Source: a bacterium | Lineage (GTDB): Bacteria; Pseudomonadota; Gammaproteobacteria; Pseudomonadales; Moraxellaceae | Reading direction: 5' to 3' | NCBI GenBank assembly: GCA_029945725.1 | Contig: JAQSDB010000003.1 | Span: forward strand, 189,842-253,841 | Length of the DNA stretch: 64,000 nucleotides | Shown here: one piece after another, positions 42,904 to 62,282 of the stretch | Layout: each line of letters begins with the position of its first letter | How positions within the stretch are numbered: the first letter of the stretch is position 1 | Notes under the pieces: model-generated | The model's database searches: none | What the model was told of the DNA's origin: nothing | Seen by the model: only the letters and a program-made list of their open reading frames with translations | Made by a program: the position numbers and the translations under genes

Positions 42904-42906
42904 GGC

Positions 42907-45900
42907 TTACCTCACCGTCGATGCGGCCAGCAATTCAGCAATGGTTTCCAGTAACTGGTCTTCCTGGAAAGGCTTGCCCATATAGGCATTTACGCCAATC
43001 TGGAAAGCTCGCTCACGATGTTTTTCACCGGTACGCGAGGTGATCATGATAATGGGCAAGTCTTCCAGATTGGGATTATGTCGCACCAGTGATGCCACTT
43101 CGAAACCATCCATGCGTGGCATTTCAATATCAAGCAGCATGACATCCGGCCGTTGATCCTCAAGCTTGGCAATAGCATCCATACCATCTTTTGCGAGCAG
43201 AACCTCATAGCCGTGACGTTCAAGCAGGCGCGACGTCACTTTGCGCACCGTGACCGAGTCATCAACCACCATGACCAGACGTGTACGTGCTGTTTCGGCC
43301 GCAGATTTTCCTGTTCCTGCATCGAAGGTCGCGGCAATACGTGGCTGCGTCTGCGAGGCCGCACGCAACATGGCAATAACGTCAAGAATGATGACAACAG
43401 AGCCGTCACCAAGAATCGTGGCGCCAGAAATGCCCGCTACAGATGCCAGCTGGGCGCCAACAGACTTCACTACAATTTCGCGTGAACCAATCAGCTGATC
43501 CACCTGAATGGCAATACGCTGCTCACCGCCACGTATCAGCAACACAGGCAAAGGCAGGGTATGCCCGAGCAGATTGGGCGACTTCACGCCATGCACAAAC
43601 TCGCCCAGATAGGAAAGCCGATAGGCAACATTGGCATATTCAAACAGGGGGGCGTCAGGTGCGTAGTACGTTTCCAGTTCATAGGGACTGGCACGTACGA
43701 TACCTTCAATCTGTGACAGGGGAATCGCGTAACTGTCTTCACCGATACGCACCATGAGCGCACGGTTCACCGCCACCGTAAATGGCAGGCGAACCGTGAA
43801 GGTGGTGCCCTGACCTGACACCGAATGAATGGAAACCACACCACCCATTTGCTTGATCTCGGAGGTCACCACATCCATGCCCACACCACGGCCCGATATC
43901 TGGGTCACCGCAGCCGCCGTGGAGAACCCGGCATGGAAAATAAACTGGATGACATCCTGATCGGAAATGTCCTGGTCTGCCGTGATGAGGCCGCGCTCAA
44001 GGGCTTTTTTACGCACAGCGGGAATGTTGATGCCGCGCCCGTCATCTGACAGCGTAAGTACCACTTCGCCGCCTTCACGGGCCAGCGTCAATGTGACACG
44101 GCCTTGCGCCGGCTTGCCGGCAGCAGCGCGTCCGGCCTGATCTTCAAGACCATGATCGACTGCATTACGCAGCATGTGCTCCAGTGGCGCGACAATACGC
44201 TCAAGCAGCGTACGATCCATTTCACCTTCGGGGTTGATCACATCCAGATCAGCCGGCTTGTGCACTTCCTGACCGGTCTGGCGCACGATGCGCTTGAGGC
44301 GTGGAACCAGGCGAGAGAAAGGCACCATGCGCGAACGCATCAACCCTTCCTGCAGCTCGGTATTGATGCGCGACTGCTGCAGCAGCAGGGTTTCGGTATC
44401 GCGCGCCTTGTCGATCAAGGTCGACTTCAAATCCAGTAAATCGGAAGCTGACTCCGTAAGCGCCTTCGAAAGCTGATTCAGCGACGAGTACTGATCCATT
44501 TCAAGCGGATCGAAATCCTCATATTTGCCACCAGTATCCTCGTTATGACGCGAGATGATCTGGCTTTCCATTTCGGCATCCATGCGGCGCAACTGTTCTG
44601 CCAGACGCTGGATAGTGGAGCCCATTTCTTCCACGGTCTGGGCAAAACCATGCACACCCATTTCTACACGGGAGCGCGTAATCGAGGTTTCACCCGCCAG
44701 ATTCACCAGCTTTTCCAGCAGATCGGAGGGCACACGGATCATTTCCTGCGGGCCGCGTGCCCCTGCATCCTTCCTGAATCCACCCTGCATTGATGGCGGC
44801 ATGATTCGTTCGCCACTTGCCACCACTCCTGCAACAACAGGCGCAGTCAGGGAAACAGCAGGCGCGCTGACCAGAGCCATCGGTTCTGCAACCACCAGCG
44901 GCTCATCTGCAACACTTTCTGCCACAGCAGGCGAAGCAACGCCAAAACCCCCACGAACGGCCTTGATGGACTCCAGTACAGCCTGCTGGCGCTCAGCAAG
45001 TCCTGCAAAAAACGCATCATCAACAATGCCGGCGCCACTCTGGACAGCGGCCAGATCGGTTTCCCAATCGTGCGCGAGATCCCCGAGCTTTTTGAGCCCG
45101 GCAAGACGAGCACCACCCTTCAGGGTGTGCAGATGACGCAGCAAGGCCTCCATATGAATCGTGGAGTCGCGATCGCCCAGCCACTCTTGCAAGGTGGTCT
45201 CAATGCCTTCTGCCAGCTCTTCGGACTCTTCAAGAAAGATTTCAAGAATATCGCTGTCAACATTCTCCGGAACCGGTGCCGCCTCAATGGTTTTTGGGCC
45301 CGGCGGAGGCGCTACTGCATGAGCCTCTTGCGCATCGGCGACAAGAGCGATCTCGGGCTCAACCGGTGTCAGCGTAACGCTGGCTGGCGTGTCCTGAAAA
45401 TTCTCCGGATCTGCCGCATAGGATGTGATCTGGAGAACAAGATCACTTGTTTCAGGACAGGCGCCTTGATGACGAAGTGCATCCACCGACTCCGCAAGAC
45501 GGTCGTGACAGCGATGCAGCAAGGTGAACAGCATCGGTGTGGGCGTCATGAGGCCATCACACACCGCCTCATAAAGATTTTCGAGATGATGCGCAAGATC
45601 ACCAAGCGGAACAATCTCCGCCATGCGTGCACCACCCTTCAGCGTATGCAGGCCGCGCTGCAATTGCTGCACCGGCAAGGTGTTATTGATGTCGTTATGC
45701 CAAGCCGCCAGTTGCTCGCTGGTCGCATCAACAATCTCACCCGCCTCTTCGAGAAATATCTCCAGCAACTCAGGATCAAAACCCTGATCCTCGGGGGCCA
45801 CTGAAACGGCAGGCGCGCTCACAATCACTACAGCCGGCTCAATCAGGGGAGCTGGCTCAATTACCGCAGCGGGCTCCACCTCATCGACAACAGGCTGGGT

Positions 45901-48900
45901 CAGGCCCGGGAAAAACTCTGCAAAGACCGCATCCCTGTCTTCTACGGCAACCTCGGCAACAGAATCGGCAACCGCCTCCTCCGGCAAAGAGGAAAACTCA
46001 TCAGAAAAAGATGACTCCACCTGATCTGTCTCTGATGAAGACAGATGCACCTCATCCACCGGCAATATATTTCCCGGCTCAGTGGCGCCTGCATCTACAT
46101 CGGGCACGCCCGCCGCAGGGTCGCGACGATAGGCATTGATTGCGGTGACCAGATCAAAACCGGCCACGCAATTACCGCTACTACGCAGCTCACCGACCAT
46201 GTCGGCAAGACGGTCGTGGCAGCGCTGCAGCAAATTCGTCAGTTCAGGCGCAGCCTTATAGCGACCATCAACAAGACCTTCGTACAGGAATTCAAGCTCA
46301 TGCGAGAGATCCCCCAGAGGGCGGATCTCGGCAAGGCGGGCACCACCTTTCAGAGTATGAAGATGACGCTGCAGCGCACCGAGTGCTGCTTTATTATCAT
46401 GGTCATTGCGCCACGCATCGAGCTCACCCTGCGCCGCCTCGAGAACCTCATCAGCCTCTTCCAGAAAAATTTCCAGCAACTCAGGATCGACCGCATCCAC
46501 GGCCACCAGATCAGCCGGCTCTTCCCATGCAGCAGAATCAGCATCGGTCATTTGCTCGGCAAGGCTGGGCTGGGCTTCCGATACAAAAGCCGCCATGGAT
46601 GGTTCATCGTTCAGAGCGACGTCCAGAGCGGCTACCGGTGTCTCCAGCAAATCCAGCAGGCGAGTCAGTACGGCTTCATTGGCGTATACCGTTTGACTGG
46701 CAGCAAGCGTATCAAACGTATTGATGATTTCGTCATGGGCGCCAGCGAGATCATTGAGCAACTCACTGTCCAGAGACAGCTCAAGCGCAGCAAGGCGCGC
46801 ATATACCCCCGCAAGTCGTGAGCTCAACAATGCCAGCGGAGCAACGCTGCAGTTGTCCGCCGCATTAGCAAGCAGCGATAGCTCATGCTGCAAGGCATCA
46901 ACTCTTGCACTTGCATCAGGGGATGACAGCCATCCATCAAGCTCCCAGGGGGCATCCAGCACATGATCCAGACCCAGCTCCATGAAACTGGCGACCAAAC
47001 CCTTGGTTGCTGCCGTAAGGTCGGATGCAACCTCACTATTCATTAATTGCTCTGAGCGCTCTTTTTCCAGACTGGCAAGGCGCTCTTGATCAAGACGATT
47101 GATGCGGGCGATCAGCTCATCCGCCGCTTCAATATGTCCATCACCACCACTCACCAGATTGGAGATACTGGCATTGATCAAATCATGGCCATCACGCAGC
47201 ACATGTAAATGATCACGGCGGGCGTTGCCAGTCTGATTGCGCAAATCCTTGAACAGATGCTCCATGGGCGATGCAATATCGGCAACAGCATTGATTCCAG
47301 CCATGCCTGCTGAACCCTTGAGGGTATGCAGGGAGCGCAGTACTTCATCACTGATAGGAGTAGCCGAGCGCTCAGGATCAACAGCGTCGAGGTAATGACG
47401 GATTTCTTCCAGATGCGTTTCCGCCTCACTGGTAAATATTTCCAGCAGGACAGGATCCGTCTCGGACATTGACTCCCGTGGGGTCGCCTCAACTCCTTCA
47501 TCGGCAACAGCAGCAGCGCCAGTATCCTCAGTAATCACATCGGCAGAAAGTTCAAGCAGTGGATCAGACTCATCGGCTATGGCATTGACGGTAACCGTCG
47601 TCGCAGGCGCACTATCGACTGGAGCCTCAAGGCTTGCCGCCAACGCATCGAAATCCTCGGCACTGGATGTATCCGCCTCAAGAAAGGCATGAGCCTGTTC
47701 TGCAGCACGCGCAACATCAAGCGCACTCAGAACCTCACCGCGCGATACCGCATCGGCAGCCTCCATCAAGGGACTGGTATCCAGCCGCGGTGGTTGGCGA
47801 TGCGCAAAATCCTCTACCAGACCCGGAATGACGGACAAGCACTCTGAAACCAGATTAACCATGACCTGATCGGGCTGCAGTATCTTGTCCCGAACCTTGT
47901 TAAGCATGTTTTCGAAAGCCCAGGCCAGTTCGGCCACGACCCTGGCACCAACCATGCGGCCAGAACCTTTCAGCGTATGAAAGCCGCGCCGGAACTCAAG
48001 CAGTGAGGCAGTATCTTCAAAATTAGCGGCCCATTTCGGGAAATACTGGTTGATGTTTTCCATCACTTCTTCGGCTTCTTCCACGAATATTTCGCGGATT
48101 TCCTCATCAAAGTCGTGATTATCTTCCGGCATACGGGTCAGTACTGGCAGGACAGGTTTCTTGGCTGCTTCGACAACAGGAGCAGGGGTCTCGGCCATTG
48201 GCTCAGAAGCAACATCCAGAGAAGCTCCTTCTACTTCTATCGCATCAATCAGTGCTGACTCGTCGAAATTCGCTGCGCTTTCATCGATAAAAAAACTTCC
48301 CTCACTCTCAACCACAGGCAAAACCGCGGTCACTGCATCGCCTTCAACAGACTCTATATCTTCGAGAAAAAACTCGTCGCCGGCCGCGGGCTCAAGACTG
48401 GCAGAAACACTGTCCCCCTCTTGCATAAAATCATTTAACGCCGATTCACCTAAATCAGCAGTCTCATTGGCCAGCCACTCTTCGTCAGAGATTGCTGCAG
48501 CGGCAGGAGCCTCTTCAATTCCAGCATCTGCAAACGGGGCTGCGGCAAAGCTGCTTTGTGCGACATTCAACTCATCCGAAATTTCCCGCAAAAGAGTATC
48601 GGCAGTGCGATCCTGCAGCACCTCGTCTTCTCTCGTCTCTACAATAATTTCCTCTTCCGGCAAGGCGGTAGCATCAGCAATCTCGGCCTCGAAGGCAGCA
48701 GCATTCTCGGCCGTCCACTCACCCTCATCGCCGGAAGCAAGATCATCTGATTCGTCATCAGTGACTGCATTGACCAGCGGGGGTGCCGCACTATCGACCG
48801 GAGCAAATCCAAGCTTGGCCAGGCCGCGCTCGGCAATATCCAGAATATTGTCGCCGCCGTGAGTATCATTGGCGATGCGCTCAAGATAGTACTCAATCGA

Positions 48901-50472
48901 TGTAATAACATCGGCCAGCGTATCCATCTCCTTCCAGTCGGGGCGATGCTGGCCGGCAAGCAGGCTTTGCGAAACATAACGGCCAGCCGCGCCGAGAATC
49001 TCGGCTGGGCGATGCAAAGAGAGAATGGAAAGTCCGCCGCGAACGGTATCGACAAGTTCCGGAATACTCTCAAGATGCGTCGGATTCCATTGTGAAGCGA
49101 TGTACTCAATGATCGCATCCTTGGCCTTCTCCAGTGCACCCCGTGACTCACGCAATACCGCCGATTGCGCATCCGAAAGCTGATCCTGCGCAGAAAACTC
49201 CGAGGCAGGATTGGCGGCAGTCTGGCCAATCGGCTTCTCTGCAACCATCCCCATCAATGTGGCCTCTACATAAAGCACTGCGCCAGCAATATCGAGGAGT
49301 CGGCCATCAAGAGGAAGCACTCCAGAACTCGTAATACTATCGATAGTCTCGATTTGCTCCTGCAAAATCCGGCGCGGCTGTCCAAGACCAAGAACGGCTA
49401 CCGTATCTGCAACCTGTTTAAGAACCGGCACGAGCGCAGAAAGGTCACCGACACTTTTCTCTGCATCTGTTTTACGCACGAACAGGTCAAGAGCATCCTT
49501 CACCCGGGCCAGTTCTTCACAAAGCGCATCCACCACCGACTTCATGGCTTCGCGATCCGGGCCATTCATGCGCGCCCGCTCTTCATTCACCAGCGCATCG
49601 CCAGGCAGAGCATCGTCCAGGCGATAGAGATCCTTTACACTGCGCAGCTTGCCGGTATTGCCGGAACTTTTAGCCACGTAATACAGCAGGTTTTTCAATA
49701 GATCAGTCGGGGCGCGTCGGGAAGCATCTCCGCCGGCATTTCGCAACTGGCGATCAACCTGCGCCAGCAGCATCTTTACTGACGTTCCTGCATCAATGCT
49801 TTTCTCAATCAAGCCCTCAACAAGGGCCGCACTGACAAGCCAAAGCTCGCGCAGGGGCGAAGCTCCGGCAAGCGTCTCAAGGCGCGCAAACAAATGCGCC
49901 ATTTTCTTCAGATTGTCGGGTGTATTGTCATTGCGAATGACGCCAAGCAGAGCCAGCTGATAAGCCTGCCGGATTTTTTTAAGCAGGACTGGAGCAATAT
50001 CCGCAGAGCTGACCTGAATGGGAGCGCGCTCTCCGGCAGCAAGATCAGGCGTAAAGAGAGCAGTCTCGGACAACAATGGCTCGCCACGCGCCGCACGCAA
50101 GTCATTAAGTAAAGGCAGAAGCACAACCGGAAGATCACGCCGCGACGCCTTCACTCGCTCAAGGTAGGGCGGCAATTGCAAAATCGCGCGCATGAGCACT
50201 TCCTGCCCATCAGGAATACGCGAAACCTGACCATTAATCAGGGCGAGACAAAGCTTCTCCATCTCTTCGGCAAGCAGGGCTGCGCCATAGAATTCCACCA
50301 TCTGCAGAGTGCCAAACACCTGATGCAAATAGGCGAGGCAGAAGCGCATTTGTGCTCCGTCCTCCGGATTTTCCACGAACGCTTCCAGCGCCTGTCGCGA
50401 CTGCTTCAGCGTTTCTTCGATTTCGCCCTTGACCCAATCCAGAGCCAGAAAGCTGTGATTGTCACCCATCAT
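42907..50472 (-). CDS. chpA: Giant hybrid CheA-type histidine kinase ChpA
   Basis: A 2521-residue histidine kinase for twitching motility. Five canonical HPt motifs appear: HTLKGSGRMVGA (about 830), HTLKGSAGMAG (about 1046), HTLKGGARLAEI (about 1370), HTLKGGARMAEI (about 1607) and HTLKGGARLAGL (about 1781). Degenerate HPt-like helices occupy the first 600 residues (YLHQVFGTLQMVEF). A very acidic linker (about 600-780) follows. The CheA core has EHMLRNAVDHGLE (N box, about 2100), LSDDGRGINI and GRGVGMDVVTSEI; then come a CheW domain and a C-terminal receiver with LLLDIEMPRMDG (Asp about 2447). ATG is preceded by GAGGG. Confidence 0.95.
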   Translation of the reverse strand: MMGDNHSFLALDWVKGEIEETLKQSRQALEAFVENPEDGAQMRFCLAYLHQVFGTLQMVEFYGAALLAEEMEKLCLALINGQVSRIPDGQEVLMRAILQLPPYLERVKASRRDLPVVLLPLLNDLRAARGEPLLSETALFTPDLAAGERAPIQVSSADIAPVLLKKIRQAYQLALLGVIRNDNTPDNLKKMAHLFARLETLAGASPLRELWLVSAALVEGLIEKSIDAGTSVKMLLAQVDRQLRNAGGDASRRAPTDLLKNLLYYVAKSSGNTGKLRSVKDLYRLDDALPGDALVNEERARMNGPDREAMKSVVDALCEELARVKDALDLFVRKTDAEKSVGDLSALVPVLKQVADTVAVLGLGQPRRILQEQIETIDSITSSGVLPLDGRLLDIAGAVLYVEATLMGMVAEKPIGQTAANPASEFSAQDQLSDAQSAVLRESRGALEKAKDAIIEYIASQWNPTHLESIPELVDTVRGGLSILSLHRPAEILGAAGRYVSQSLLAGQHRPDWKEMDTLADVITSIEYYLERIANDTHGGDNILDIAERGLAKLGFAPVDSAAPPLVNAVTDDESDDLASGDEGEWTAENAAAFEAEIADATALPEEEIIVETREDEVLQDRTADTLLREISDELNVAQSSFAAAPFADAGIEEAPAAAAISDEEWLANETADLGESALNDFMQEGDSVSASLEPAAGDEFFLEDIESVEGDAVTAVLPVVESEGSFFIDESAANFDESALIDAIEVEGASLDVASEPMAETPAPVVEAAKKPVLPVLTRMPEDNHDFDEEIREIFVEEAEEVMENINQYFPKWAANFEDTASLLEFRRGFHTLKGSGRMVGARVVAELAWAFENMLNKVRDKILQPDQVMVNLVSECLSVIPGLVEDFAHRQPPRLDTSPLMEAADAVSRGEVLSALDVARAAEQAHAFLEADTSSAEDFDALAASLEAPVDSAPATTVTVNAIADESDPLLELSADVITEDTGAAAVADEGVEATPRESMSETDPVLLEIFTSEAETHLEEIRHYLDAVDPERSATPISDEVLRSLHTLKGSAGMAGINAVADIASPMEHLFKDLRNQTGNARRDHLHVLRDGHDLINASISNLVSGGDGHIEAADELIARINRLDQERLASLEKERSEQLMNSEVASDLTAATKGLVASFMELGLDHVLDAPWELDGWLSSPDASARVDALQHELSLLANAADNCSVAPLALLSSRLAGVYARLAALELSLDSELLNDLAGAHDEIINTFDTLAASQTVYANEAVLTRLLDLLETPVAALDVALNDEPSMAAFVSEAQPSLAEQMTDADSAAWEEPADLVAVDAVDPELLEIFLEEADEVLEAAQGELDAWRNDHDNKAALGALQRHLHTLKGGARLAEIRPLGDLSHELEFLYEGLVDGRYKAAPELTNLLQRCHDRLADMVGELRSSGNCVAGFDLVTAINAYRRDPAAGVPDVDAGATEPGNILPVDEVHLSSSETDQVESSFSDEFSSLPEEAVADSVAEVAVEDRDAVFAEFFPGLTQPVVDEVEPAAVIEPAPLIEPAVVIVSAPAVSVAPEDQGFDPELLEIFLEEAGEIVDATSEQLAAWHNDINNTLPVQQLQRGLHTLKGGARMAEIVPLGDLAHHLENLYEAVCDGLMTPTPMLFTLLHRCHDRLAESVDALRHQGACPETSDLVLQITSYAADPENFQDTPASVTLTPVEPEIALVADAQEAHAVAPPPGPKTIEAAPVPENVDSDILEIFLEESEELAEGIETTLQEWLGDRDSTIHMEALLRHLHTLKGGARLAGLKKLGDLAHDWETDLAAVQSGAGIVDDAFFAGLAERQQAVLESIKAVRGGFGVASPAVAESVADEPLVVAEPMALVSAPAVSLTAPVVAGVVASGERIMPPSMQGGFRKDAGARGPQEMIRVPSDLLEKLVNLAGETSITRSRVEMGVHGFAQTVEEMGSTIQRLAEQLRRMDAEMESQIISRHNEDTGGKYEDFDPLEMDQYSSLNQLSKALTESASDLLDLKSTLIDKARDTETLLLQQSRINTELQEGLMRSRMVPFSRLVPRLKRIVRQTGQEVHKPADLDVINPEGEMDRTLLERIVAPLEHMLRNAVDHGLEDQAGRAAAGKPAQGRVTLTLAREGGEVVLTLSDDGRGINIPAVRKKALERGLITADQDISDQDVIQFIFHAGFSTAAAVTQISGRGVGMDVVTSEIKQMGGVVSIHSVSGQGTTFTVRLPFTVAVNRALMVRIGEDSYAIPLSQIEGIVRASPYELETYYAPDAPLFEYANVAYRLSYLGEFVHGVKSPNLLGHTLPLPVLLIRGGEQRIAIQVDQLIGSREIVVKSVGAQLASVAGISGATILGDGSVVIILDVIAMLRAASQTQPRIAATFDAGTGKSAAETARTRLVMVVDDSVTVRKVTSRLLERHGYEVLLAKDGMDAIAKLEDQRPDVMLLDIEMPRMDGFEVASLVRHNPNLEDLPIIMITSRTGEKHRERAFQIGVNAYMGKPFQEDQLLETIAELLAASTVR

Positions 50473-50578
50473 TTATGCCCTCAGGGGCCATATCGTTATT
50501 GTCTATGCCATCGTGGCGCTGTTATGGCGATCCTTGCCGTACGATTGCCATGCTGTTTCTTGCATGGCAAACATGCCA

Positions 50579-51466
50579 TCAAACCTTTCGACGAAACGCC
50601 AACGTATCCGGATAATCCACTCGTACCAGCTGCGGATGCGCCCAATCTGCAGCCTCTCCCACACCCAGCACCATCAATCCACCAGGCGCAAGGCGCGCTG
50701 CGAGATTGGCGAGAATGTCGCGCTTGCGAAAGCGCCGGAAATAAATCAGCACATTCTGGCAAAAAATCACATCAATACCGGATAACGGCATGCGATCCAG
50801 CTCCATGATATTGAGCTGAACAAAAGCAATGCGCTTCTTCAATGCATCAGTGACCTGCCAATCTTTCTTGCCAACCACCGAATCAAAATATTTATTCTTC
50901 CACGCAGTCGGCACATTGTGCAGGCGGCGTTCGCCATAAATACCCAGACGCGCACGTGATAACGTAGGCAAACTGATGTCCGAAGCCGTCACCCCAAAAT
51001 AAACCTTGCTGCGATTCAGGTCAGTCAATTGCGCATCCGTCTGCATGGCCAGCGAATACGGCTCCTCTCCCGTAGAGCAACCAACGCTCCACAAGTTCAG
51101 TGACTTGCGCTCCGGCTCCTTCATCATTATTTCTGAGATATGCGAACGCACCAGCGCAAACGAACTCGGATGCCTGAAAAAAGAGGTCTCCTGAACGGTA
51201 AGCCGATCAACAAGCACGGCCCATTCACGTTCCGCAACCGGACCGGCCATGAGTTGTTCGTAATAGGTTTCGTAATCACTTACACCAATCTCGCGCATGC
51301 GAATGGCGAGATTGGTTTCGAGAAAGGAACGGCGCGAGATCCCCACCGTCATACCGGTCCGGGCCTCGATCAGGGTCTGCCACAGCTCGAACTGTTCATC
51401 CGAGATGGGCGCGAGCGACTTGATGCCCCAACGGTTTGTGGTGGCCACATCGGTTGTCCTGTACAT
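50579..51466 (-). CDS. pilK: CheR-type chemoreceptor methyltransferase PilK
   Basis: A 295-residue SAM-dependent methyltransferase. CheR features: N-terminal helices FELWQTLIEARTGMTV, ETSFFRHPSSFALV, LWSVGCSTGEEPYSLAMQ (SAM motif), NIMELDRMPLSGIDVIFCQN and LIYFRRFRKRDI. It should methylate glutamates in PilJ for adaptation. Sits between pilJ (26 nt) and chpA (106 nt). Confidence 0.92.
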   Translation of the reverse strand: MYRTTDVATTNRWGIKSLAPISDEQFELWQTLIEARTGMTVGISRRSFLETNLAIRMREIGVSDYETYYEQLMAGPVAEREWAVLVDRLTVQETSFFRHPSSFALVRSHISEIMMKEPERKSLNLWSVGCSTGEEPYSLAMQTDAQLTDLNRSKVYFGVTASDISLPTLSRARLGIYGERRLHNVPTAWKNKYFDSVVGKKDWQVTDALKKRIAFVQLNIMELDRMPLSGIDVIFCQNVLIYFRRFRKRDILANLAARLAPGGLMVLGVGEAADWAHPQLVRVDYPDTLAFRRKV

Positions 51467-51492
51467 GCTCGCCCCAAAAAGGCCCGCGAGCC

Positions 51493-53628
51493 TTAGGCGT
51501 GTTCAGGCAATTTGAAGCCGGCGACCGACTGACGCAACTCATTGGCCATTTCTGCAAGATTACCAATTGAGCGCGCAGTCGCAATCGTACCCGCTGTCGT
51601 CTGCGAGGTGATTTCCTGAATCACGTTCATGGTATTGGAGATATGGCCTGCAGAAGCTGCCTGCTGGCGAGCGGCATTCGAAATATTCTGGATAAGGTCG
51701 GCGAGATTTCTCGACACCGTTTCAATCTCTTCCAGAGCCACACCGGCGTCCTGTGCGAGTCGCGCACCACGCACCACTTCGGCAGTGGTTTGTTCCATCG
51801 AAATAACGGCTTCGTTGGTATCGGTTTGAATCGTTTTCACCAACTGTTCAATCTGTTTCGTTGCAGCAGCAGAGCGCTCGGCAAGACGCTGCACTTCATC
51901 GGCCACCACCGCAAAACCTCGACCGGCATCACCAGCCATGGATGCCTGGATCGCCGCGTTCAAGGCCAGAATGTTTGTCTGGTCAGCGATATCATTAATA
52001 AGCGACACAATGTCACCAATTTCCTGCGATGACTCACCAAGACGTTTGATACGTTTTGACGTTTCCTGAATCTGTTCACGAATCGTATCCATGCCAGAGA
52101 TGGTGTTTTGCACCACTTCAGCACCCTTGTGGGCAATACCCACAGAGCGCTCGGCCACTGCGGCAGACTCGGCAGCATTGGCCGACACCTGGTCAATGGA
52201 CACGGCCATTTCATTAACGGCAGCAGAGGCGCCGGCAATTTCCTGAGCCTGATGCTCCGAGGCTTCGGCAAGATGCATCGCCGTAGACTGGGTCTCCTGA
52301 GCAGCAGCAGACACCTGCACAGCTGTCTGGTTAATCGTGGTAACAAGGCCGCGCAACTGGTCAATCGAGTAGTTGATCGAGTCGGCAATGGCGCCTGTAA
52401 AATCTTCGGTAACCGTTGCCTGTACCGTTAGATCACCGTCAGCAAGGTCGCCAAGCTCATCAAGGAGACGCAAAATAGCATCCTGATTACGACGATTCTC
52501 CGATTCGATCTGTTCGGCTCGCGCCATTTCCTGATTACGCTCAACCTGGGCACTGATGCGATCGCGGTTGGCGCCGATGGAGAAAAGCTTCATGCCGCAA
52601 GCAATGCCAAGAATCAATGCCACAATGCCGATCAGGGTATAGATCGTTGTATCAGCGCCCTCAGCAACTTTCGTTGACAACTCAGTGGTGGCATCAAGCA
52701 TGCCCTTGGAGTCGCGGAAAATGGAATCTGCCGCTTCACGCACCTGAAACAACTCTGGCGAAGTCTCAAGAATGGCATCTGCCGACTTTTTCACAGACTG
52801 GTCAAAGCTTTCAGCAATTGCCGAGAGGGCATCTTGCGCTTCCGGATCAGTTACCTGTTGCACGCCCAGCGCAGCATCACCATCGAGCATACCCTTCAGC
52901 ACACGTTCGAATTGTGCAGAGTCACGTCCAAAGGAGTCGGCAGAAGTAACTGCGTCAGTGCCACCCTGCAGCACCTTGTTAACGGAGCGCAAGATACGCT
53001 CTGCCAATACGGACTGTTGTTTGGCAATTGAGATCTGGCCAGCAGATGCCTTCGTACGCAACATGCCCTCAACCACGATATCGTATTCTGCCTGCAGGTC
53101 AGGAACGGTTTCCGTCAGCGTCTGCGCGAGCTCGTGCAGACCTGTCACCGAGGCTTTGCCATCCAGCACAATCTTGGCGTTATTGGAGACAGGCTGCCAA
53201 ATCTTCTCGACGCCAAGCATCTCAGGCGCCTTTTCGCCTCGCGAAGCCTTGAGTGCGCCCCAACGCTCCTGGAAATCATCGTGTGCCTTCTTCAGCTGCG
53301 CGAAAGCTTCGTCATTACCGCCAGCTGCTTCCGTCGCATTCTTGGCAATATCCTGAGAAAGCACGCGCAGCTCGGAGGCGTTCTTGATCATGGTAGTGGC
53401 GTTATAACTCTTCACACCCACCACGAAGAATGCGGCCACCACCACCGCCAATGCGGCCGCCAACCCTATCAGCCAAGGCTTTGTATCCGCCACGTCACTG
53501 GAGGTATCCGTGAATAGAGAGGACCAGAACTCACGCTGAAGTAAAGAGCGAAAGCTTTCTTTGGAGAAAACACGCTTCCATTCAACGTTCGTGAATTTGT
53601 CACGAGCAGCTTGCAGATTTGGATTCAT
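51493..53628 (-). CDS. pilJ: Methyl-accepting chemotaxis protein PilJ
   Basis: A 711-residue chemoreceptor from [17 protein letters not shown] (53628); the track start adds an unsupported leader. A first membrane helix at about 50-70 ([20 protein letters not shown]) and a second at about 333-353 ([17 protein letters not shown]) enclose a periplasmic PilJ-type sensor. Then come HAMP-like and signalling regions with the hairpin core [20 protein letters not shown]. PilJ is the receptor for the Chp pathway, in Pseudomonas sensing pilus-surface contact through pilin. Confidence 0.93.
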
Positions 53629-53707
53629 ACCATCAGCCCTCGACGGCCCCCTGTTGTAATTTTTTAATTGGCAGACCGGCATGCCGGTCCATTTTCAAGC
53701 TGCATTC

Positions 53708-54244
53708 TCAGGAATGGGCAGCCTGTAGAAACTGTGGATCCTCTACCAGTCGGCTCAGGCTGAAAATCGTCCATTGACGGTCTTCACGCTTAAAAGCCCC
53801 CTGTACAAACGGCACCAGTTCGGCAGGTACCGCAGGTGTTTCTGCGGAGTAATCCTGCACAGGAAAGTGCTGCATACCCAACACGTCATCCACGACCAGC
53901 CCGCTGAAAATATCGCCCTGATCAATCACGATCAGGCGACGTCTGTGCTCCTGCAGGGTAGACAGCCGATTGAAATAACCCAGAAGGTCCATGATCGGCA
54001 GCAAGCGGCCACGCACATTGGCAATTCCCTTCATCCATGACCTCACCCCGGGCACATGGGTATAGCGCGGCACTGCCAGCACCTCGGAAACCTCCCCCAT
54101 GGCCGCAAGAAAATACTGGCCATCAAGCGTAAAGCCGATACCGCTCCAGTACTCGATTGCCTGCCCGTCAGCAGGCAGACCCAAAGTGCGCTGCCTGGAT
54201 CTTTCTGCAATTTCGAGAAGCTTTATGAAGCCCTTAGCCGCCAT
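53708..54244 (-). CDS. pilI: CheW-like adaptor PilI
   Basis: A 178-residue CheW-domain protein (GFTLDGQYFLAAMGEVSEVL, WMKGIANVRGRLLPIMDL, GLVVDDVLGMQHFP) that couples the receptor PilJ to ChpA. Position third in pilGHIJK agrees. 23 nt after pilH and 79 nt before pilJ. Confidence 0.92.
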   Translation of the reverse strand: MAAKGFIKLLEIAERSRQRTLGLPADGQAIEYWSGIGFTLDGQYFLAAMGEVSEVLAVPRYTHVPGVRSWMKGIANVRGRLLPIMDLLGYFNRLSTLQEHRRRLIVIDQGDIFSGLVVDDVLGMQHFPVQDYSAETPAVPAELVPFVQGAFKREDRQWTIFSLSRLVEDPQFLQAAHS

Positions 54245-54267
54245 GATATCTACTTGTTATTTTTGGG

Positions 54268-54636
54268 TTATTTGCCAGGAACCAGGCTGGCAATAGTCTG
54301 CATCAGGAAAGTTTCATCCACCGGCTTGGTCAGATAGTCCCTCGCACCCTGACGCTTACCCCAGACACGATCAGTCTCCTGATCCTTGGTCGTTACAATC
54401 ACGATCGGAATATGGGCCGTATCTTCACCTTTGGTGAGCTGACGGGTAGCCTGAAAGCCATTCAGACCGGGCATTACTACGTCCATCAAAACCAGATCTG
54501 GCTGCTCAGCACGCGCCATCGCAACACCATCAGCGCCATTGGCAGCCTCAAGAACCTGATGACCATGCTTTTCAAGAATTTCACGGAAGCGATAAGTTTC
54601 CGTGGGTGAATCATCAACGATCAGAATACGCGCCAT
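54268..54636 (-). CDS. pilH: CheY-like response regulator PilH
   Basis: A 122-residue single-domain receiver: acidic pocket ILIVDDSPTETYRF, acceptor Asp in LVLMDVVMPGLNGFQ, Thr in IVIVTTKDQ and Lys in DYLTKPVDE. In Pseudomonas PilH is one of two Chp output regulators and affects pilus retraction or phosphate sink. Second gene of the cluster. Confidence 0.92.
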   Translation of the reverse strand: MARILIVDDSPTETYRFREILEKHGHQVLEAANGADGVAMARAEQPDLVLMDVVMPGLNGFQATRQLTKGEDTAHIPIVIVTTKDQETDRVWGKRQGARDYLTKPVDETFLMQTIASLVPGK

Positions 54637-54668
54637 AGTCCCCCCGCAAATGCTTGCCAGTCCGCGGC

Positions 54669-55055
54669 CTAGACCCGGACATGCTGCCGAATTGCACCCA
54701 GTAACTCTTCCTTACTGAATGGCTTGGTCAGGTACTCGTCAGAGCCCACAATACGCCCCTTGGCCTTGTCAAAAAGACCGTCCTTCGATGACAGCATGAT
54801 CACCGGAGTAGCCTTGAAGGCAGAGTTATTCTTGATCAATGCACAGGTCTGATAGCCATCCAGCCGCGGCATCATGATGTCGACGAAGATGATGTGCGGA
54901 TTGGTATCGGCAATCTTGGCAAGAGCATCAAAGCCGTCAGTTGCCGTAATCACGGTACAGCCAGCTTTTTGCAGCAGGGTTTCTGCAGTGCGGCGAATAG
55001 TCTTGGAGTCGTCAATCACCATGACTTTCAAACCGTCGAAATTATCTTCTGACAT
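54669..55055 (-). CDS. pilG: CheY-like response regulator PilG
   Basis: A 128-residue receiver with VMVIDDSKTIRRTAETLLQ, acceptor Asp in IIFVDIMMPRLDGYQ, Ser in IMLSSKDG and Lys in EYLTKPFSK. First gene of the cluster; PilG promotes pilus extension in Pseudomonas. The 265-bp region upstream should carry the operon promoter. Confidence 0.92.
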   Translation of the reverse strand: MSEDNFDGLKVMVIDDSKTIRRTAETLLQKAGCTVITATDGFDALAKIADTNPHIIFVDIMMPRLDGYQTCALIKNNSAFKATPVIMLSSKDGLFDKAKGRIVGSDEYLTKPFSKEELLGAIRQHVRV

Positions 55056-55320: not shown

Positions 55321-56406
55321 TCAAATCACATAGTCACTAACCGCCCCGCCCTGGTCGGCAGAAAGAAAGACCCGAGCCTGGCGCGGCCGAAAATAGACCG
55401 TCTCGCCCTCTTCCACAGGCTCTGACAAGTAGCGCTCGCGCGAGAGCTCGACTTCAACCTTCTCGTTGGCATGCGCCAGCACCAGACGAACCAGACCACC
55501 CAATCGCCTGACCTCATCAACACGCCCCGTCAGGGACTCCGGCAGCGGCAGCCGCGAGAGCTCGATATCATGCGGACGGACATAGGCAACGGCCTGCGAG
55601 GCATCCACGCCGGCATGCTCGCTGACCTCAAGCCGCAGGCCACCCAGGTCGGCCCAGCCGTGATCCACACGGCCGTGAAAAAGATTCACATTGCCGAGGA
55701 AGCTGTAAACAAAAGGGCTGGCAGGGGCCTGATAGACCTCGTCCGGCGTACCCACCTGCTCAATATGCCCCTTGTTGAGCACTACAATGCGGTCAGCAAC
55801 CTCCAGCGCCTCCTCCTGATCATGGGTCACAAACACCGAGGTGACATGAATCTCGTCATGCAGCTGACGCAACCAGCGCCTGAGATCCTTGCGTACTTTT
55901 GCATCAAGCGCCCCGAAGGGTTCATCCAGCAGTAACAGTTTTGGCTCAACCGCCAGCGCACGGGCGAGAGCAATACGCTGACGCTGCCCCCCGGAAAGCT
56001 GACTGGGATAACGGTCTGCCAGCCAGTCCAGCTGCACCAGCTCCAGCAGTGCATGAACCTTCTTGCGAATCTCTGCCTCGGAAGGTCGCTGTTTGCGCGG
56101 GCGCACGCGCAAACCAAAAGCCACATTCTCAAAAACACTCATATGGCGAAACAATGCATAGTGCTGGAAAACAAAGCCAACCTGGCGATCGCGCACATGC
56201 TGATCGGTCGTGTCTTCACCATGAAAAAGAATGCTGCCATTGTCCGCCGATTCAAGGCCCGCAATAATGCGTAGCAGTGTTGTCTTGCCACAACCAGAGG
56301 GGCCCAGCAACGCTACCAGCTCGCCGGTTTCCACCGTAAGACTCACATTATCCAGCGCGACAAAGTCGCCAAAGCGCTTGCTGATATTCCTGATATCGAT
56401 GCTCAT
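55321..56406 (-). CDS. cysA: Sulfate/thiosulfate ABC transporter ATP-binding protein
   Basis: A 361-residue ABC ATPase from [20 protein letters not shown] (56406 fits the family start; 56418 is an in-frame alternative). Walker [15 protein letters not shown], signature [17 protein letters not shown], Walker [15 protein letters not shown] and H-loop [16 protein letters not shown]. The C-terminal TOBE-like regulatory domain follows. Powers the CysT-CysW permease; 19 nt after cysW. Confidence 0.95.
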
Positions 56407-56425
56407 TATGTATGTCATCCGCCCT

Positions 56426-57325
56426 TTAATTATTCACTGGACCGGATTCCTGATATCCGGAACGCAATGCCTTGATTTCCTTTGCCAGTTGCCACTCGGC
56501 AAAGCTTTTGATCAGCAAGGTGATCAACGCCAGAAAGGCCAGCAGCGAGGCAACAGCAAACGCTGCCACGAAGTTGTATTCGTTGTAGAGAATCTCAACC
56601 TGCAATGGCATGGTATTGGTCAAGCCTCGAATATGCCCAGAGACCACTGATACCGCACCAAACTCTCCCATGGCACGCGCGTTACAGAGAATAACGCCAT
56701 AAAGAATCCCCCACTTTATGTTCGGCAAAGTGACATGCCAGAAGGTCTTGAAGCCGGAAGCACCCAGTGTAATTGCAGCCTCCTCCTCTTCGATCCCTTG
56801 CGATTGCATCAAGGGAATCAGTTCACGCGCTACAAAAGGAAACGTTACAAATAACGTCGCCAGAACAATCCCTGGCACTGCAAAAAGTATCTTGATGTCA
56901 TGTTCATAAAGCCACTCACCAAAAACCCCCTGAGCACCGAACAGCAACACATAGATAAGGCCGGCAATGACAGGCGACACGGCAAAGGGAAGATCAATAA
57001 GGGTGATCAGTAACTGCTTGCCGCGGAAATCAAATTTTGCAATTGCCCATGCGGCCGACACCCCGAAAACAAGATTAAGCGGAACGGAAATCCCTGCTGC
57101 AATCAGTGTCAGCTTGATGGCCGACAATGCATCCGGATCTTTGAGCGCCGAAAAGTAAGCTTCAGCGCCCTTTCTAAATGCCTCCACAAAAACAGCAGCG
57201 AGCGGCGCCAGCAAAAAGATCGCCAGAAAAAGCATGGCAACGCCAATTAGCAGCGCACGAATCCACCACGCCTCCGTAGTGGCGCTAGTGCGCCTGGATG
57301 CGGTCACCGATGAATGAATAGACAT
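56426..57325 (-). CDS. cysW: Sulfate/thiosulfate ABC permease CysW
   Basis: A 299-residue permease with six membrane helices and the EAA loop [20 protein letters not shown] that docks Cys[20 protein letters not shown] and [15 protein letters not shown] are characteristic. 12 nt after cysT, 19 nt before cysA. Confidence 0.95.
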
Positions 57326-57337
57326 AATTATTCCTGA

Positions 57338-58174
57338 TCAGATACGACCGTGACGGCGCTGACTCCAGGCCTGCAAGCCATTCACTGTCAGCAACAAGAC
57401 AAAAGAAATCAGCATCATGACCAAAGCAATCGCCGTTGCTCCCGCATAATTGTATTGCTCCAGCTGGGTGATAATGAGCAGGGGGGTGATTTCAGAAATC
57501 ATCGGCATATTGCCGGCAATGAAAATTACCGATCCGTATTCGCCAATGGCCCGCGCAAACGCCAAGGCAAAACCCGTAATCAATGCCGGCAAAATAGCCG
57601 GAAAAATGACTTTCAAAAAAGTCTGCCCGCGGCTGGCGCCCAGACTGACGGCCGCCTCCTCCACCTCAACCTCAAGATCCTCCAGCACGGGCTGCAGCGT
57701 TCTCACCACAAAAGGCAAACCAATAAAAGTCAGGGCCACGACAACCCCCAAAGGCTTGAAAGCAACCTTGATTCCGAGGGGCTCAAGGTACTGGCCAATC
57801 CAGCCATTCGGGACAAAAAGTGTTGTCAGTGCAATGCCGGCCACCGCTGTGGGCAAGGCAAAGGGCAGATCCACCAGCGCATCAATCAGGCGCCGGCCCG
57901 GAAAGCGGTAGCGCACCAGCACCCAGGCCACCAGAAAACCAAAAACCGCATTGATCACAGCGCCGATAAATGCCGCGCCAAAGCTCAGACGGTACGATGC
58001 CATGACACGTGGCGAGGTCACGATGCCCACAAAGTCACCCCATGACAAAGAGGCGCTCTTCCAGAACAGACCGGAAAGGGGAATGAGGATAAGCAGACTG
58101 AGATAAAAGATCGTGAAGCCCATCGTCAGGCCGAAGCCAGGCAACACACTGGGCTTTCGCCAAAATGACTGTGT
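57338..58174 (-). CDS. cysT: Sulfate/thiosulfate ABC permease CysT
   Basis: A 278-residue permease from MTQSFWRKPSVLPGFGLTMG, the usual family length; the track start at 58216 is a TTG without support. Six helices, LPFALPTAVAGIALTTLF and the EAA loop VEEAAVSLGASRGQTFLKV are visible, followed by GEYGSVIFIAGN. First gene of cysTWA; the 151 bp upstream separates it from the regulator and holds a motif shared with the sbp promoter. Confidence 0.95.
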   Translation of the reverse strand, partial: TQSFWRKPSVLPGFGLTMGFTIFYLSLLILIPLSGLFWKSASLSWGDFVGIVTSPRVMASYRLSFGAAFIGAVINAVFGFLVAWVLVRYRFPGRRLIDALVDLPFALPTAVAGIALTTLFVPNGWIGQYLEPLGIKVAFKPLGVVVALTFIGLPFVVRTLQPVLEDLEVEVEEAAVSLGASRGQTFLKVIFPAILPALITGFALAFARAIGEYGSVIFIAGNMPMISEITPLLIITQLEQYNYAGATAIALVMMLISFVLLLTVNGLQAWSQRRHGRI

Positions 58175-58312
58175 CATAAACCGTACAACCCCAAAAAATA
58201 CGCCAAGACCGCCCAAGGTGCGGCAGACACAGGGCCCCTGCGAATGGCGGCGGCCACTTTATCCGTAGAAAAATGACAGATGAAATACCAATTACGCAGG
58301 ACGAGCTGCTTT

Positions 58313-58322
58313 TTGGTTATAA
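58313..58322 (+). promoter_or_regulatory. Motif TTGGTTATAA in the cysT leader
   Basis: Copy of the ten-base motif found before sbp. It lies 3 nt beyond the regulator stop and about 139 nt before the cysT start. Confidence 0.35.
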
Positions 58323-58325
58323 CCC

Positions 58326-59039
58326 TCAGGAGGCGAAGCGTATGCCCTCTGCTCCGCTCCCGCGTTTGCGCGGAGCCTCATTGGCAAAACGGTAACCGCT
58401 ACCACGGACCGCTTCGATCAGGTGACCCGAGCCATAGCGGGCCAATTGATTGCGCAGACGGTAAACGTGCACATCAACGGTACGCTCCTCCACAAAGCCC
58501 TGATCTGCCCACACCGTTTCCAGCAATTGGGCGCGCGTATAAACGCGGCCGGGGTGAGCCATAAGGAAATACAGAAGGCGGAATGCCAGTGAGGTCAGAT
58601 TCAGCGGTAGATGTCCCACCCATGCCTGTTGCTGACCCGGATCCAGTCGCAGCCCCTCCAGCTCCAGAGGCGTCAGTTCGGACGGGCCTGGTTTCAGCAC
58701 AGCCTTGAGCTTGAGCAGTAACTCACGCGGCTCTGTCGACACCCGGTGCACCGATGGCGCAATCGCCACTCCCGGCAACTCATCCAGCACCAGGGCCGGC
58801 AGGCGCCGCGAGTCCGGCAAATGCCGGCGCAAGGGCGACACCAGCACGGCCGCGTGTTGCCGACTGCCCAGAACAAGGACGTCAGGCACCACAGCAGGCT
58901 CCTGCTGATGCAGGAAGTGCAGGGCCTCATCGCTGTCGCCGGCGGCGATCACGATATAACCGCCCTGTTGCTCAAGCACATGGGTGACAAAGCGGCGCGC
59001 CAGCTCATGCTCATGGATCAGTAATACGACGGTGCTCAT
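58326..59039 (-). CDS. OmpR-type winged-helix regulator with degenerate receiver
   Basis: A 237-residue DNA-binding protein. The C-terminal winged helix (about 135-225) is intact (LTSLAFRLLYFLMAHPGRVY and VEERTVDVHVYRLRNQL, GSGYRF) and PhoB-like. The N-terminal receiver-like part lacks key residues: the strand that should end in the phospho-acceptor Asp reads PDVLVLGSRQH, and the acidic pocket DD is replaced by HEHE. It probably acts without phosphorylation or senses another signal. No histidine kinase is adjacent. It is embedded among sulfate-uptake genes, so regulation of them is plausible. Confidence 0.8.
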   Translation of the reverse strand: MSTVVLLIHEHELARRFVTHVLEQQGGYIVIAAGDSDEALHFLHQQEPAVVPDVLVLGSRQHAAVLVSPLRRHLPDSRRLPALVLDELPGVAIAPSVHRVSTEPRELLLKLKAVLKPGPSELTPLELEGLRLDPGQQQAWVGHLPLNLTSLAFRLLYFLMAHPGRVYTRAQLLETVWADQGFVEERTVDVHVYRLRNQLARYGSGHLIEAVRGSGYRFANEAPRKRGSGAEGIRFAS

Positions 59040-59071: not shown

Positions 59072-60076
59072 TTACTTCGCAGCCGGAACATAGATCTGGT
59101 CAAAAAGGCCGCCATCTGCAAAATGGATGCCCTGCACTCTTTTCCAGCCCCCCAGCGCGTCAATACCAACCAGCTTCAGCGGCTTGAATGTCGCCGAATA
59201 CTGACTCCGCACGACGGCATCGCGCGGGCGCAAATAATGCCTGGCTGCCAGTTTTTGACCTTCCGTCGAATAGAGATACTCCAGATAGGCGCGGGACTGC
59301 TTCAGCGTGCCATGTTTGCTGGCAAACTTTTCAACCACTGCCACGGGTGGCTCGGCAAGAATACTGACCGATGGATAGATTATTTCCAGATTGGCATCAG
59401 CAAGCTCTCGCTGTGTCAGGAAGGCTTCATTCTCGAACGTAACGAGCACATCACCGATACCACGCTGCGCAAATGTTGTGGTCGCGCCACGGCCACCCGC
59501 ATCAAGAACAGGCACATTGCGGAAAAGCTTCTGCTCGAAATCAATCGCACTGGCGTCGCCACCCCCCTTTTTCCTCGCATAAATCCAGGCGCCAAGATAG
59601 GTATAGCGGCCATTACCAGAGGTCTTTGGATTAGGAATAATCACGGACAGGCCCGGCTTCACCAGATCCCCCCAGTCCTTGATGCCGTTTGGATTACCTT
59701 TACGCACCAAAAACACGATAGTGGAAGTAAACGGAGAGCTGTTATCGCGATATTTCTTCACCCAGTCTTTTGGCAATAGCTCCTTTTCTGCAAGAATATC
59801 GATGTCATTGGACTGATTCATGGTCGCTACATCTGCTTCGAGGCCGTCTGCCACGGCTCTCGCCTGCTTGCTGGAACCCCCGTGTGACTGATTGATCGTC
59901 AGCGTTTCTCCGGTCTTGTTTTTCCAGTAAACCGTGAAGACATCATTATAGTCCTTGAAAAATTCCCGGGTTACATCGTACGAAACATTGAGCAACGTAG
60001 CCGCAGATACTGACTGCGCCAACAAAATAGCAGCGGCAGTAAAACCAATATTTGAAATAATTCCGTGCTTTTTCAT
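59072..60076 (-). CDS. Periplasmic sulfate-binding protein (second copy)
   Basis: A 334-residue binding protein of the Sbp/CysP family with signal peptide MKKHGIISNIGFTAAAILLA ending in SVSAA. Mature sequence begins TLLNVSYDVTREFFKDYN; further family segments are QSHGGSSKQARAVADGLEAD, NPKTSGNGRYTYLGAW and PPVAVVEKFASKHGT. Paralogous to the protein at 60405-61424, from which it differs throughout. AAGGGAAG precedes the ATG. Delivers sulfate or thiosulfate to CysTW. Confidence 0.92.
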   Translation of the reverse strand: MKKHGIISNIGFTAAAILLAQSVSAATLLNVSYDVTREFFKDYNDVFTVYWKNKTGETLTINQSHGGSSKQARAVADGLEADVATMNQSNDIDILAEKELLPKDWVKKYRDNSSPFTSTIVFLVRKGNPNGIKDWGDLVKPGLSVIIPNPKTSGNGRYTYLGAWIYARKKGGGDASAIDFEQKLFRNVPVLDAGGRGATTTFAQRGIGDVLVTFENEAFLTQRELADANLEIIYPSVSILAEPPVAVVEKFASKHGTLKQSRAYLEYLYSTEGQKLAARHYLRPRDAVVRSQYSATFKPLKLVGIDALGGWKRVQGIHFADGGLFDQIYVPAAK

Positions 60077-60098
60077 AATGCTTCCCTTTATTTTTCCT

Positions 60099-60314
60099 TC
60101 AGATAATGGCCAAAGCCACTTCCGTTGACTTGACCAATGCCACTACCTCGGTACCGACTACCAGATTAAGATCCCTGACGGACCTTGTGGTGATAACCGA
60201 TGTGACGATACCAAAGGGCGTCTCCACTTCGACCTCTGAAACTACTGGACCCGTGATAATTTCCTTGATATGGCCCCGGAACTGGTTTCGTACATTGATG
60301 GCTTCTATGCTCAT
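60099..60314 (-). CDS. Molbindin-like TOBE-domain protein (Mop)
   Basis: A 71-residue single TOBE/Mop domain: MSIEAINVRNQFRGHIKEI and VVSEVEVETPFGIVTSVITT, closing with VVALVKSTEVALAI. The ATG at 60314 has GGAG about 7 nt upstream and the length is exactly that of molbindins; the track start is too early. Such proteins bind molybdate or tungstate in the cytoplasm. Placed between two sulfate-binding protein genes, it suggests handling of an oxyanion that competes with sulfate. Confidence 0.87.
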   Translation of the reverse strand: MSIEAINVRNQFRGHIKEIITGPVVSEVEVETPFGIVTSVITTRSVRDLNLVVGTEVVALVKSTEVALAII

Positions 60315-60404
60315 TTTTCTACTCCGGAATATTTTCGTTGCAGGCGAGAAAAGCCCCGTGCTGCCCGTCACAAGCATTCATGGCGACACGATCAGCAGAT
60401 CAGA

Positions 60405-61424
60405 TTATTTCTTTCCCGGCACATAGATCTGGTCAAAGGTGCCGCCATCCGCGAAATGCGTTTCAGTGGCAAGGCTCCAGCCGCCAAAATCCTTGATGCT
60501 GAAAAGCTTTATTTTCGGCAGCTGTTTTTCATATTTTGCGGCAGCTTTCGGGCTGGTCGGGCGGTAATAGTTGCGACCGGCAATGTCCTGCCCTTCGTCA
60601 CTGTAGAGGTACTGCAGATAGGCCTTTGCCACTTCAGTCGTGCCATGCTTCCTGGCATTCCGGTCAACCACTGCTACCGGTGGCTCCGCCAGAATACTGA
60701 TCGACGGCACCACGATTTCAACTTTCTCCGGGCCCAGCTCCTTCACCGCTAGGAAGGCTTCGTTTTCCCATGCCAGCAGGACATCACCGATACCACGCTC
60801 AACGAAGGTGGTCGTGGAGCCTCGCGCACCGGAATCCAGCACAGGCACATTCTGATAAAGCTTCTTCACGAAGGCCTTGGCGGTATCGGTATTGGCGCCC
60901 GGCTGGCGCAGGGCATAACCCCAGGCCGCAAGATAATTCCAGCGCGCTCCGCCCGAGGTTTTGGGATTGGGCGTGATCACCTGCAGCCCTGGCCTGACCA
61001 GATCACCCCAGTCCTTGATGCCTTTGGGATTTCCCTTGCGCACCAGAAATACAATCGTGGAAGTGTAGGGAGCGCTGTTATGGGGGAGGCGCCTGGCCCA
61101 GTTTTCATCAAGCAGCCTGGCCTTGCTGGCCAGGGGATCAATATCGCCTGCCAGTGCCAGGGTCACGACATCCGCCTCGAGACCATCAATCACCGAACGG
61201 GCCTGCTTGCCAGAACCGCCATGGGACTGCCTGACCACCACATCATCCCCTGTCCTGGCTTTCCAGTACCGGGCAAAGGCCTGGTTGTAATCCTGATAAA
61301 GTTCGCGAGTGGGATCGTAGGAAACGTTGAGCAGATTGATCTCGGCAGCACTGGCAGCCGCCGCTGACACCCCAAGCGCAAGCACTAGCGCGCTGACACC
61401 CAGACGGAAAAAGGAGATTTTCAT
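60405..61424 (-). CDS. sbp: Periplasmic sulfate-binding protein
   Basis: A 339-residue sulfate-binding protein from [20 protein letters not shown] (61424), with signal peptide and mature start [21 protein letters not shown]. Segments typical of Sbp: [60 protein letters not shown] and [19 protein letters not shown]. First of the two paralogues after the TSUP permease. Confidence 0.93.
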
Positions 61425-61510
61425 GGCACACCCCGAAAACAAATGAATTGATTAGGGGGCTGATGCTATTGCGACAAGGAAGAGTTTAAAAAGAATAAAT
61501 AGTTACTCAC

Positions 61511-61520
61511 TTATAACCAA
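61511..61520 (-). promoter_or_regulatory. Motif TTGGTTATAA upstream of sbp, shared with cysT leader
   Basis: TTGGTTATAA (read on the minus strand) lies about 87 nt before the sbp start. The same ten bases occur at 58313-58322 between the regulator and cysT, in opposite orientation. A second 9-mer, ACCAATTAC, also recurs in both leaders (61516-61524 and 58287-58295). They may be parts of a shared operator, for example for CysB or the embedded regulator. Confidence 0.35.
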
Positions 61521-62282
61521 TTACCATCCCATCAAGGCATCCACCAGAAGTTTGCCGCCGGCCACCACGGTCAGAATCTCAAAGGCATGCTTGACCAGCC
61601 GGTTTCCCTTGAGCAGGGCCCAGTGGGCGCCAATATACCCCCCCAGAAATGAGCCCAGCAGCAAGGGGGGCAACCAGTCCCATTTGACTGGCGCCTGTAC
61701 CGACAGCATCGCGGCACCGAGGCCATTCCAGAAAAGCCCGACCAGGATCAAGGTGTAGGAAACAGCACGGGTGTAATCGAGACCGAACCATCGTACCAGC
61801 CAGATTGTGACGAACAGGCCGGTACCCGATGTGAGCGAACCATTGAGAACGCCCGTCAGAAACAACACCAGTCCGCCGAGCACAAGGCCCGACCGGTCGC
61901 GATGACGGCGCTCGCTACACTGCCCGAGCTGTGGCCGGCGCCATGAATAAACACCCAGGCCCAGAGTCAGCAGCCCGAGGGCAAGCTCTGCCCAGCGATC
62001 GGGAATGCGCAGGATCAGCTGGGTGCCGAGAAGGACTCCGGGCCAGCCACAAGCCAGGATGAACAGAGCAAAGCGCCAGCGCATCCGCCCCTCGCGCAGG
62101 TGCCGGATCGTGGCACCCACACCCAGCGCAACACTGGCAATCTTGTGCGTCGCCAATGCCGCAGGAAATCCCAGGCCAAGCATCAGCAGGGCCGGTAACT
62201 GCAGGAGGCCTGCGCCGCCACCGGCCAGGGCGGAAAGGGTGTTTGCCAGCAGCGCCACAAAAAACAAAACCACGACATCCAT
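61521..62282 (-). CDS. TSUP family anion permease (TauE/SafE)
   Basis: A 253-residue membrane protein with about eight helices and the family opening LANTLSALAGGGAGLLQLPALLMLGL. A second repeat half is TGVLNGSLTSGTGLFVTIWLV. TSUP proteins move sulfite, sulfonates or related anions. Directly upstream of sbp in the sulfate locus, hence sulfur-anion export or import is likely. Direction cannot be told from sequence. Confidence 0.87.
   Translation of the reverse strand: MDVVVLFFVALLANTLSALAGGGAGLLQLPALLMLGLGFPAALATHKIASVALGVGATIRHLREGRMRWRFALFILACGWPGVLLGTQLILRIPDRWAELALGLLTLGLGVYSWRRPQLGQCSERRHRDRSGLVLGGLVLFLTGVLNGSLTSGTGLFVTIWLVRWFGLDYTRAVSYTLILVGLFWNGLGAAMLSVQAPVKWDWLPPLLLGSFLGGYIGAHWALLKGNRLVKHAFEILTVVAGGKLLVDALMGW

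Follow-up and report, generated by a model that had tools for sequence, protein, structure and literature searches.

REG, a regulatory gene in the sulfate-uptake operon of the window (the whole stretch of 64,000 nucleotides analysed here), is conserved within one small lineage. Judged by its sequence, it encodes an Asp-less, or pseudo-receiver, regulator, the term being used as in a 2025 review for a receiver homologue without the residues needed for phosphotransfer (PMC12632262). The explanation that we favour, with a probability of about 0.5, is that REG is a phosphorylation-independent PhoB paralogue, accessory to CysB in the control of sulfate uptake, whose N-terminal domain is structural and whose activity is set by dosage.

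The REG open reading frame was confirmed (237 aa, ATG start, exactly 58326-59039, minus strand). It is the fourth gene of an operon in the order sbp1-mop-sbp2-REG-cysT-cysW-cysA, all on the same strand, and starts 32 bp from sbp2, with 148 bp between REG and cysT. This agrees with an earlier note on this DNA, which had put a regulator between sbp and cysT, here more precisely between sbp2 and cysT. The features of the region are the following.

55321..56418, minus strand: cysA, sulfate ABC ATPase (CysA/TIGR00968 matches)
56426..57325, minus strand: cysW, sulfate permease (TIGR02140, 1.5e-124)
57338..58177, minus strand: cysT, sulfate permease, directly downstream of REG (TIGR02139, 1.2e-124)
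58178..58325, minus strand: REG-cysT intergenic leader, with the block TATAACCAAAAnGCAG conserved in three genomes
58326..59039, minus strand: REG, PhoB paralogue, with a predicted pseudo-receiver (residues 1-118) and a winged helix (about 125-220)
58380..58667, minus strand: PhoB-type winged-helix DNA-binding domain (residues 125-220)
58686..59039, minus strand: N-terminal pseudo-receiver domain, with Gly58 at the acceptor, His9-Glu10 at the acidic pair and a model without helix a4
59072..60076, minus strand: sbp2, sulfate-binding protein (NCBIfam, 2.2e-122)
60099..60314, minus strand: mop, 71-aa single TOBE/molbindin-like protein (the listed reading frame extends to 60377; homologues begin at residue 22)
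60405..61424, minus strand: sbp1, sulfate-binding protein, first gene of the operon (NCBIfam, 2.6e-158)
61425..61520, minus strand: sbp1 leader, with the conserved ATTCTTTTT block, related to a stretch in a REG-less genome

The two sulfate-binding protein genes (59072-61424, minus strand) are paralogues of about 58% identity, and among the loci read both are present only in the window and in its closest relative, G027. Next to sbp1 on its upstream side, and in the same orientation, lies a TSUP/TauE-like permease gene (61521-62282, minus strand), which is kept in G027 and, at a distance, in G040; it is possibly a further sulfur transporter of the locus.

The DNA-binding half can be recognised without difficulty. 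Trans_reg_C is the sole Pfam match in REG (1.4e-25; 89.6 bits, cut-off 26.2), the effector domain of E. coli PhoB gives the best PDB match (3.4e-25), and Foldseek superposes the winged helix on PhoB effector crystal structures with 44-47% identity and an rmsd of 1.5-1.9 A, all of which bears out the claim of an intact PhoB-like DNA-binding domain. In the alignment, PhoB Arg193, Asp196, Arg201, Arg203 and Arg219 are retained in all seven full-length members of the family; Asp196, Arg201 and Arg203 are recognition-helix residues and Arg219 is a wing residue (PhoB numbering). The position of PhoB Arg200 is instead an invariant Tyr across the seven, and this substitution, with the other residues kept, suggests that the DNA specificity of REG is likely to be related to that of PhoB but altered. 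REG also misses the PhoB equivalog TIGR02154 (124 bits versus a cut-off of 296), and the genome of the window carries a separate canonical PhoB with an intact acceptor (L002, at G000:C3:330704). In a winged-helix tree, the REG proteins group together as a single clade (SH-aLRT 99) next to that of PhoB, with weak support for the exact branching. On these alignments and this tree, REG is a PhoB-lineage paralogue and not the PhoB orthologue.

The receiver half is far more diverged. Pfam Response_reg scores only 18.8 bits on REG against a cut-off of 30.2, and the three most distant members have no match to it whatsoever, so that Pfam-based surveys would miss receivers of the REG type. The N-domain is matched to 24 PhoB receivers with an E of 4e-8 (hhalign) and, in a profile search, to RR468 with an E of 5e-5. 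The structure prediction of the N-domain proposed in the earlier note was run with AF2 on an alignment of REG orthologs only (pLDDT 84, pTM 0.81), and the top Foldseek match of the resulting model is the PhoB receiver (TM about 0.7, probability 1.00). The profiles and the models thus make a clear case for a receiver fold despite the sub-threshold Pfam score. In the AF2 models, strand b3 spans residues 54-58, which puts Gly58 at the PhoB acceptor position. That position reads G, G, G, G, G, S, S across the seven full-length members, and the Thr and Lys of canonical receivers are lost in REG and are not conserved among the members. The acidic pair had been described as absent. This holds insofar as no pair is conserved in the seven (HE in the window, then HE, HD, HE, HR, LK and LV), but REG itself keeps one acidic residue, Glu10, which the variation to HR, LK and LV marks as not a conserved one.

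The earlier note had named one observation that would count against its reading, an alignment with a conserved Asp at the acceptor position, and the default MAFFT alignment does set the invariant Asp53 opposite the PhoB acceptor. REG would then be a working response regulator whose site had simply been misaligned. We consider this highly improbable, since three independent methods, hhalign, the HMMER profile alignments and AF2 (both models), agree that Asp53 marks the beginning of b3 and that Gly58, at the end of the strand, occupies the acceptor position, and since the acidic pair and the Lys are unconserved. Asp53 corresponds to the Pro-Asp that opens b3 and that canonical receivers also carry (PDLILLD), and the MAFFT placement is therefore an artefact.

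In both AF2 models, moreover, b4 (82-85) and b5 (98-100) are linked by about 12 residues that do not form a helix a4. The absence of a4 rests on prediction, with moderate model confidence in the b4-b5 loop; the most distant REG members likewise have a short segment here. Activated OmpR/PhoB proteins dimerise through their a4-b5-a5 face. As modelled, then, the canonical dimer face of REG is remodelled, and REG would have to dimerise otherwise or not at all.

No kinase was found within or adjoining the cys operon in the window, as had been noted before; the nearest is the ChpA-like hybrid kinase of a Pil-Chp cluster (42907-50472), about 5 kb beyond cysA. We rejected this Chp kinase as a partner of REG because, among the loci read, the window and G027 are the only ones with Pil-Chp next to the cys operon, and because in the more distant orthologous loci the kinase does not neighbour the cys genes. 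The twitching chemosensory cluster itself looks complete (41887-55055, minus strand), its hybrid kinase being 2521 aa long. Phosphorylation-independent action of REG, which the earlier note had proposed, is well supported by the alignments and models, with neither an acceptor Asp nor a conserved acidic pair or Lys, and by the lack of a partner kinase. Set beside PhoB, REG has the same two-domain order, a winged helix with about 45% identity to the effector domain of E. coli PhoB, the key recognition-helix Arg residues and, in its N-domain, a receiver fold; it differs in having no acceptor Asp, no conserved acidic pair or Lys, no a4 in the model and no PhoR partner, in the invariant Tyr for Arg200, and in being encoded in a sulfate operon.

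Six full-length orthologs of REG (40-84% identical) and one contig-edge fragment were found, in two genera; a contig scan returned one ortholog, that of G027, which is already in this count. Of about 330 family genomes searched, the only ones found with REG belong to genus g1 (6 of its 9 genomes) or genus g2 (2 genomes, one of them with the contig-edge fragment). It lies immediately upstream of cysT in all eight occurrences, the fragment included, and usually 18-32 bp behind sbp or mop; the link to the sulfate locus, already drawn in the earlier note, is thus supported by synteny in two genera. With seven conserved syntenic members, a chance observation is excluded. Within g1, REG and cysT are both present in six genomes and both absent in three. 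One g2 genome has sbp-cysT without REG, showing that REG is dispensable. In the rest of the family and order, cysT is preceded by sbp or, in several genera, by an alpha/beta-hydrolase-like gene. Beyond the two genera, searches of order, class and phylum samples, in which rare outliers could be missed, gave no REG orthologs and only PhoB-like proteins, all of which keep the acceptor Asp where DNA was fetched and translated. A contig titled 'Pedobacter sp.' (JAVHYE010000083.1, L009) carries a locus 84% identical to the gammaproteobacterial-type cys/pil region of the window, and its organism label looks wrong.

The reading frame is intact and the length kept in all members, down to 40% identity. 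Nei-Gojobori dN/dS between the window and G027 is 0.17 for the N-half and 0.04 for the C-half; other pairs give 0.20-0.43 and 0.06-0.24, respectively, some with dS near saturation. Both halves of REG are under purifying selection, which is weaker on the N-half: its dN/dS is about 1.3-4 times that of the DNA-binding domain, and it is the more divergent domain in every pair compared.

CysB has a gene of its own in the genome of the window, and the protein shares 65% identity with its E. coli counterpart. ATTCTTTTT recurs in the seven sbp leaders, ahead of a TAgnaT-like -10, and a related stretch occurs in one REG-less genome; this block is probably a CysB-type promoter element. The block TATAACCAAAAnGCAG is common to the REG-cysT leader of three genomes, and its core motif also precedes cysB. 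In related genomes the core TTATAACCAAA is found before sbp, cysT and cysB, with a weak version at cysB in a genome without REG. We rejected TTATAACCAAA as a REG-specific site, as it is also present at cysB promoters and its count in the genome of the window equals the control count. Its presence at cysB promoters makes it look like a CysB element, cysB being autoregulated by CysB in enteric bacteria (PMC11329422), and the leader motifs TATAACCAAAAnGCAG and TTATAACCAAA are probably both CysB elements. A search of the sbp and cysT leaders for Pho-box-like sites and 11-bp direct repeats gave none consistently above shuffled sequence (one leader reached p 0.03 among 13 tested). CysB and Cbl, with which REG probably shares a target operon, are LysR regulators of sulfur assimilation and belong to a protein family unrelated to REG.

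The favoured explanation would have a PhoB-lineage paralogue join the sulfate-uptake operon and lose phosphorelay control. REG would bind DNA without a phosphorylation trigger and adjust the transcription of the sbp and/or cysTWA genes, accessory to CysB. Its N-domain would be mainly a structural or multimerisation module, and its activity would be set chiefly by the amount that the operon makes, an autogenous feedback on sulfate uptake. Supporting this are the Gly or Ser at the acceptor in all seven members, the synteny with cysT in all eight occurrences and the co-occurrence of the two genes in g1, together with purifying selection on both domains, the kept recognition residues, the position of the REG clade beside PhoB, the presence of CysB in the same genome and the counterpart of the sbp promoter block in a REG-less genome. 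We count against it that a REG site was not found in the leaders, that REG is dispensable in one g2 genome and that the usual dimer face is absent from the model. The pseudo-receiver regulators reviewed include constitutively active ones that are controlled by their availability (PMC12632262).

The class of Asp-less pseudo-receivers is already known, 609 OmpR-type cases having been counted (PMC4395418); what is new is the sulfate-operon context, the predicted absence of a4 and a confined family locked in synteny. Like HP1043, ChxR, RitR and GlnR, REG combines a receiver fold, predicted to be free of control by Asp phosphorylation, with an OmpR/PhoB winged helix and is an orphan without a partner kinase. 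It differs from them in the model without a4, in its place in a sulfate-uptake operon, in its restriction to two genera and in a receiver below the Pfam cut-off. Among the open-licence papers searched, none was found to describe such a regulator within a sulfate operon. Pseudo-receivers are widespread, and how those of bacteria are switched on and off has been called a mystery (PMC12632262); here is one that is tied by synteny to one well-defined pathway, that of sulfate uptake, in small genomes in which CysB is encoded as well, with a short list of candidate signals (sulfate, cysteine precursors, the transporter, Mop) and of candidate targets (the sbp and cysT leaders).

The N-domain could be read quite differently. 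It might be a decaying receiver without a role, with only the winged helix mattering, or the whole gene might be drifting; the greater divergence of the N-domain and its score under the Pfam threshold would fit, but a dN/dS well below 1, the intact frame and length in all members and the retained fold make this improbable. It might, on the other hand, be a one-component sensor, DNA binding being switched when the pseudo-receiver binds a sulfur signal (sulfate, APS, O-acetylserine, cysteine or sulfide), much as some pseudo-receiver regulators are inhibited by the end products of their pathways. Ligand-binding pseudo-receivers are known, JadR1 and RedZ among them (PMC12632262), the N-domain is conserved under purifying selection and REG sits in the sulfate operon. 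The invariant N-domain residues, however, are mostly hydrophobic core (L7, L22, V30, L40, L107-109) with Y28, D53, D86 and E103, among which a conserved polar pocket is not evident, and the raised dN/dS of the N-domain also argues against a ligand sensor, which we regard as a minority possibility. Redox sensing through Cys was rejected: six of the seven members, REG and five of its six orthologs, have no Cys, so that a RitR-type redox switch is excluded for most of the family by sequence, and REG differs from redox pseudo-receivers of the RitR/HP1021 type in lacking the regulatory cysteine.

Control through a protein partner, with the N-domain docking CysA or the small oxyanion-binding-type Mop and so reporting transport or oxyanion status, seems to us doubtful as well. 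Mop lies between sbp and REG in 5/7 members, no Mop was seen next to cysT in those family loci read that lack REG, and PhoB itself is controlled through the phosphate transporter. In two members, G059 and G064, Mop is nevertheless missing from the locus, and there is no strong match elsewhere (G064 is incomplete). We judge a scaffold or dimerisation role, in which operon expression sets the activity, to be no less likely than the metabolite or partner sensing suggested in the earlier note. One might still speculate, with some reserve, that a PhoB paralogue was rebuilt as a sulfur regulator, losing a4 and phosphorylation, with its pseudo-receiver taking input directly from sulfate uptake through a sulfur ligand or through Mop or CysA. 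If true, such input would couple an ABC transporter to a PhoB-type regulator without a kinase.

Mop is 85-89% identical across the two genera, against 40-84% for REG. Its relatives elsewhere in the family adjoin a sulfonate-type ABC ATPase (L143-L166). SsuF is a molbindin, and the Mop at 60099-60314 is possibly SsuF-like. The ssuF gene of a sulfonate cluster has been reported as essential but of unknown function (PMC4267179).
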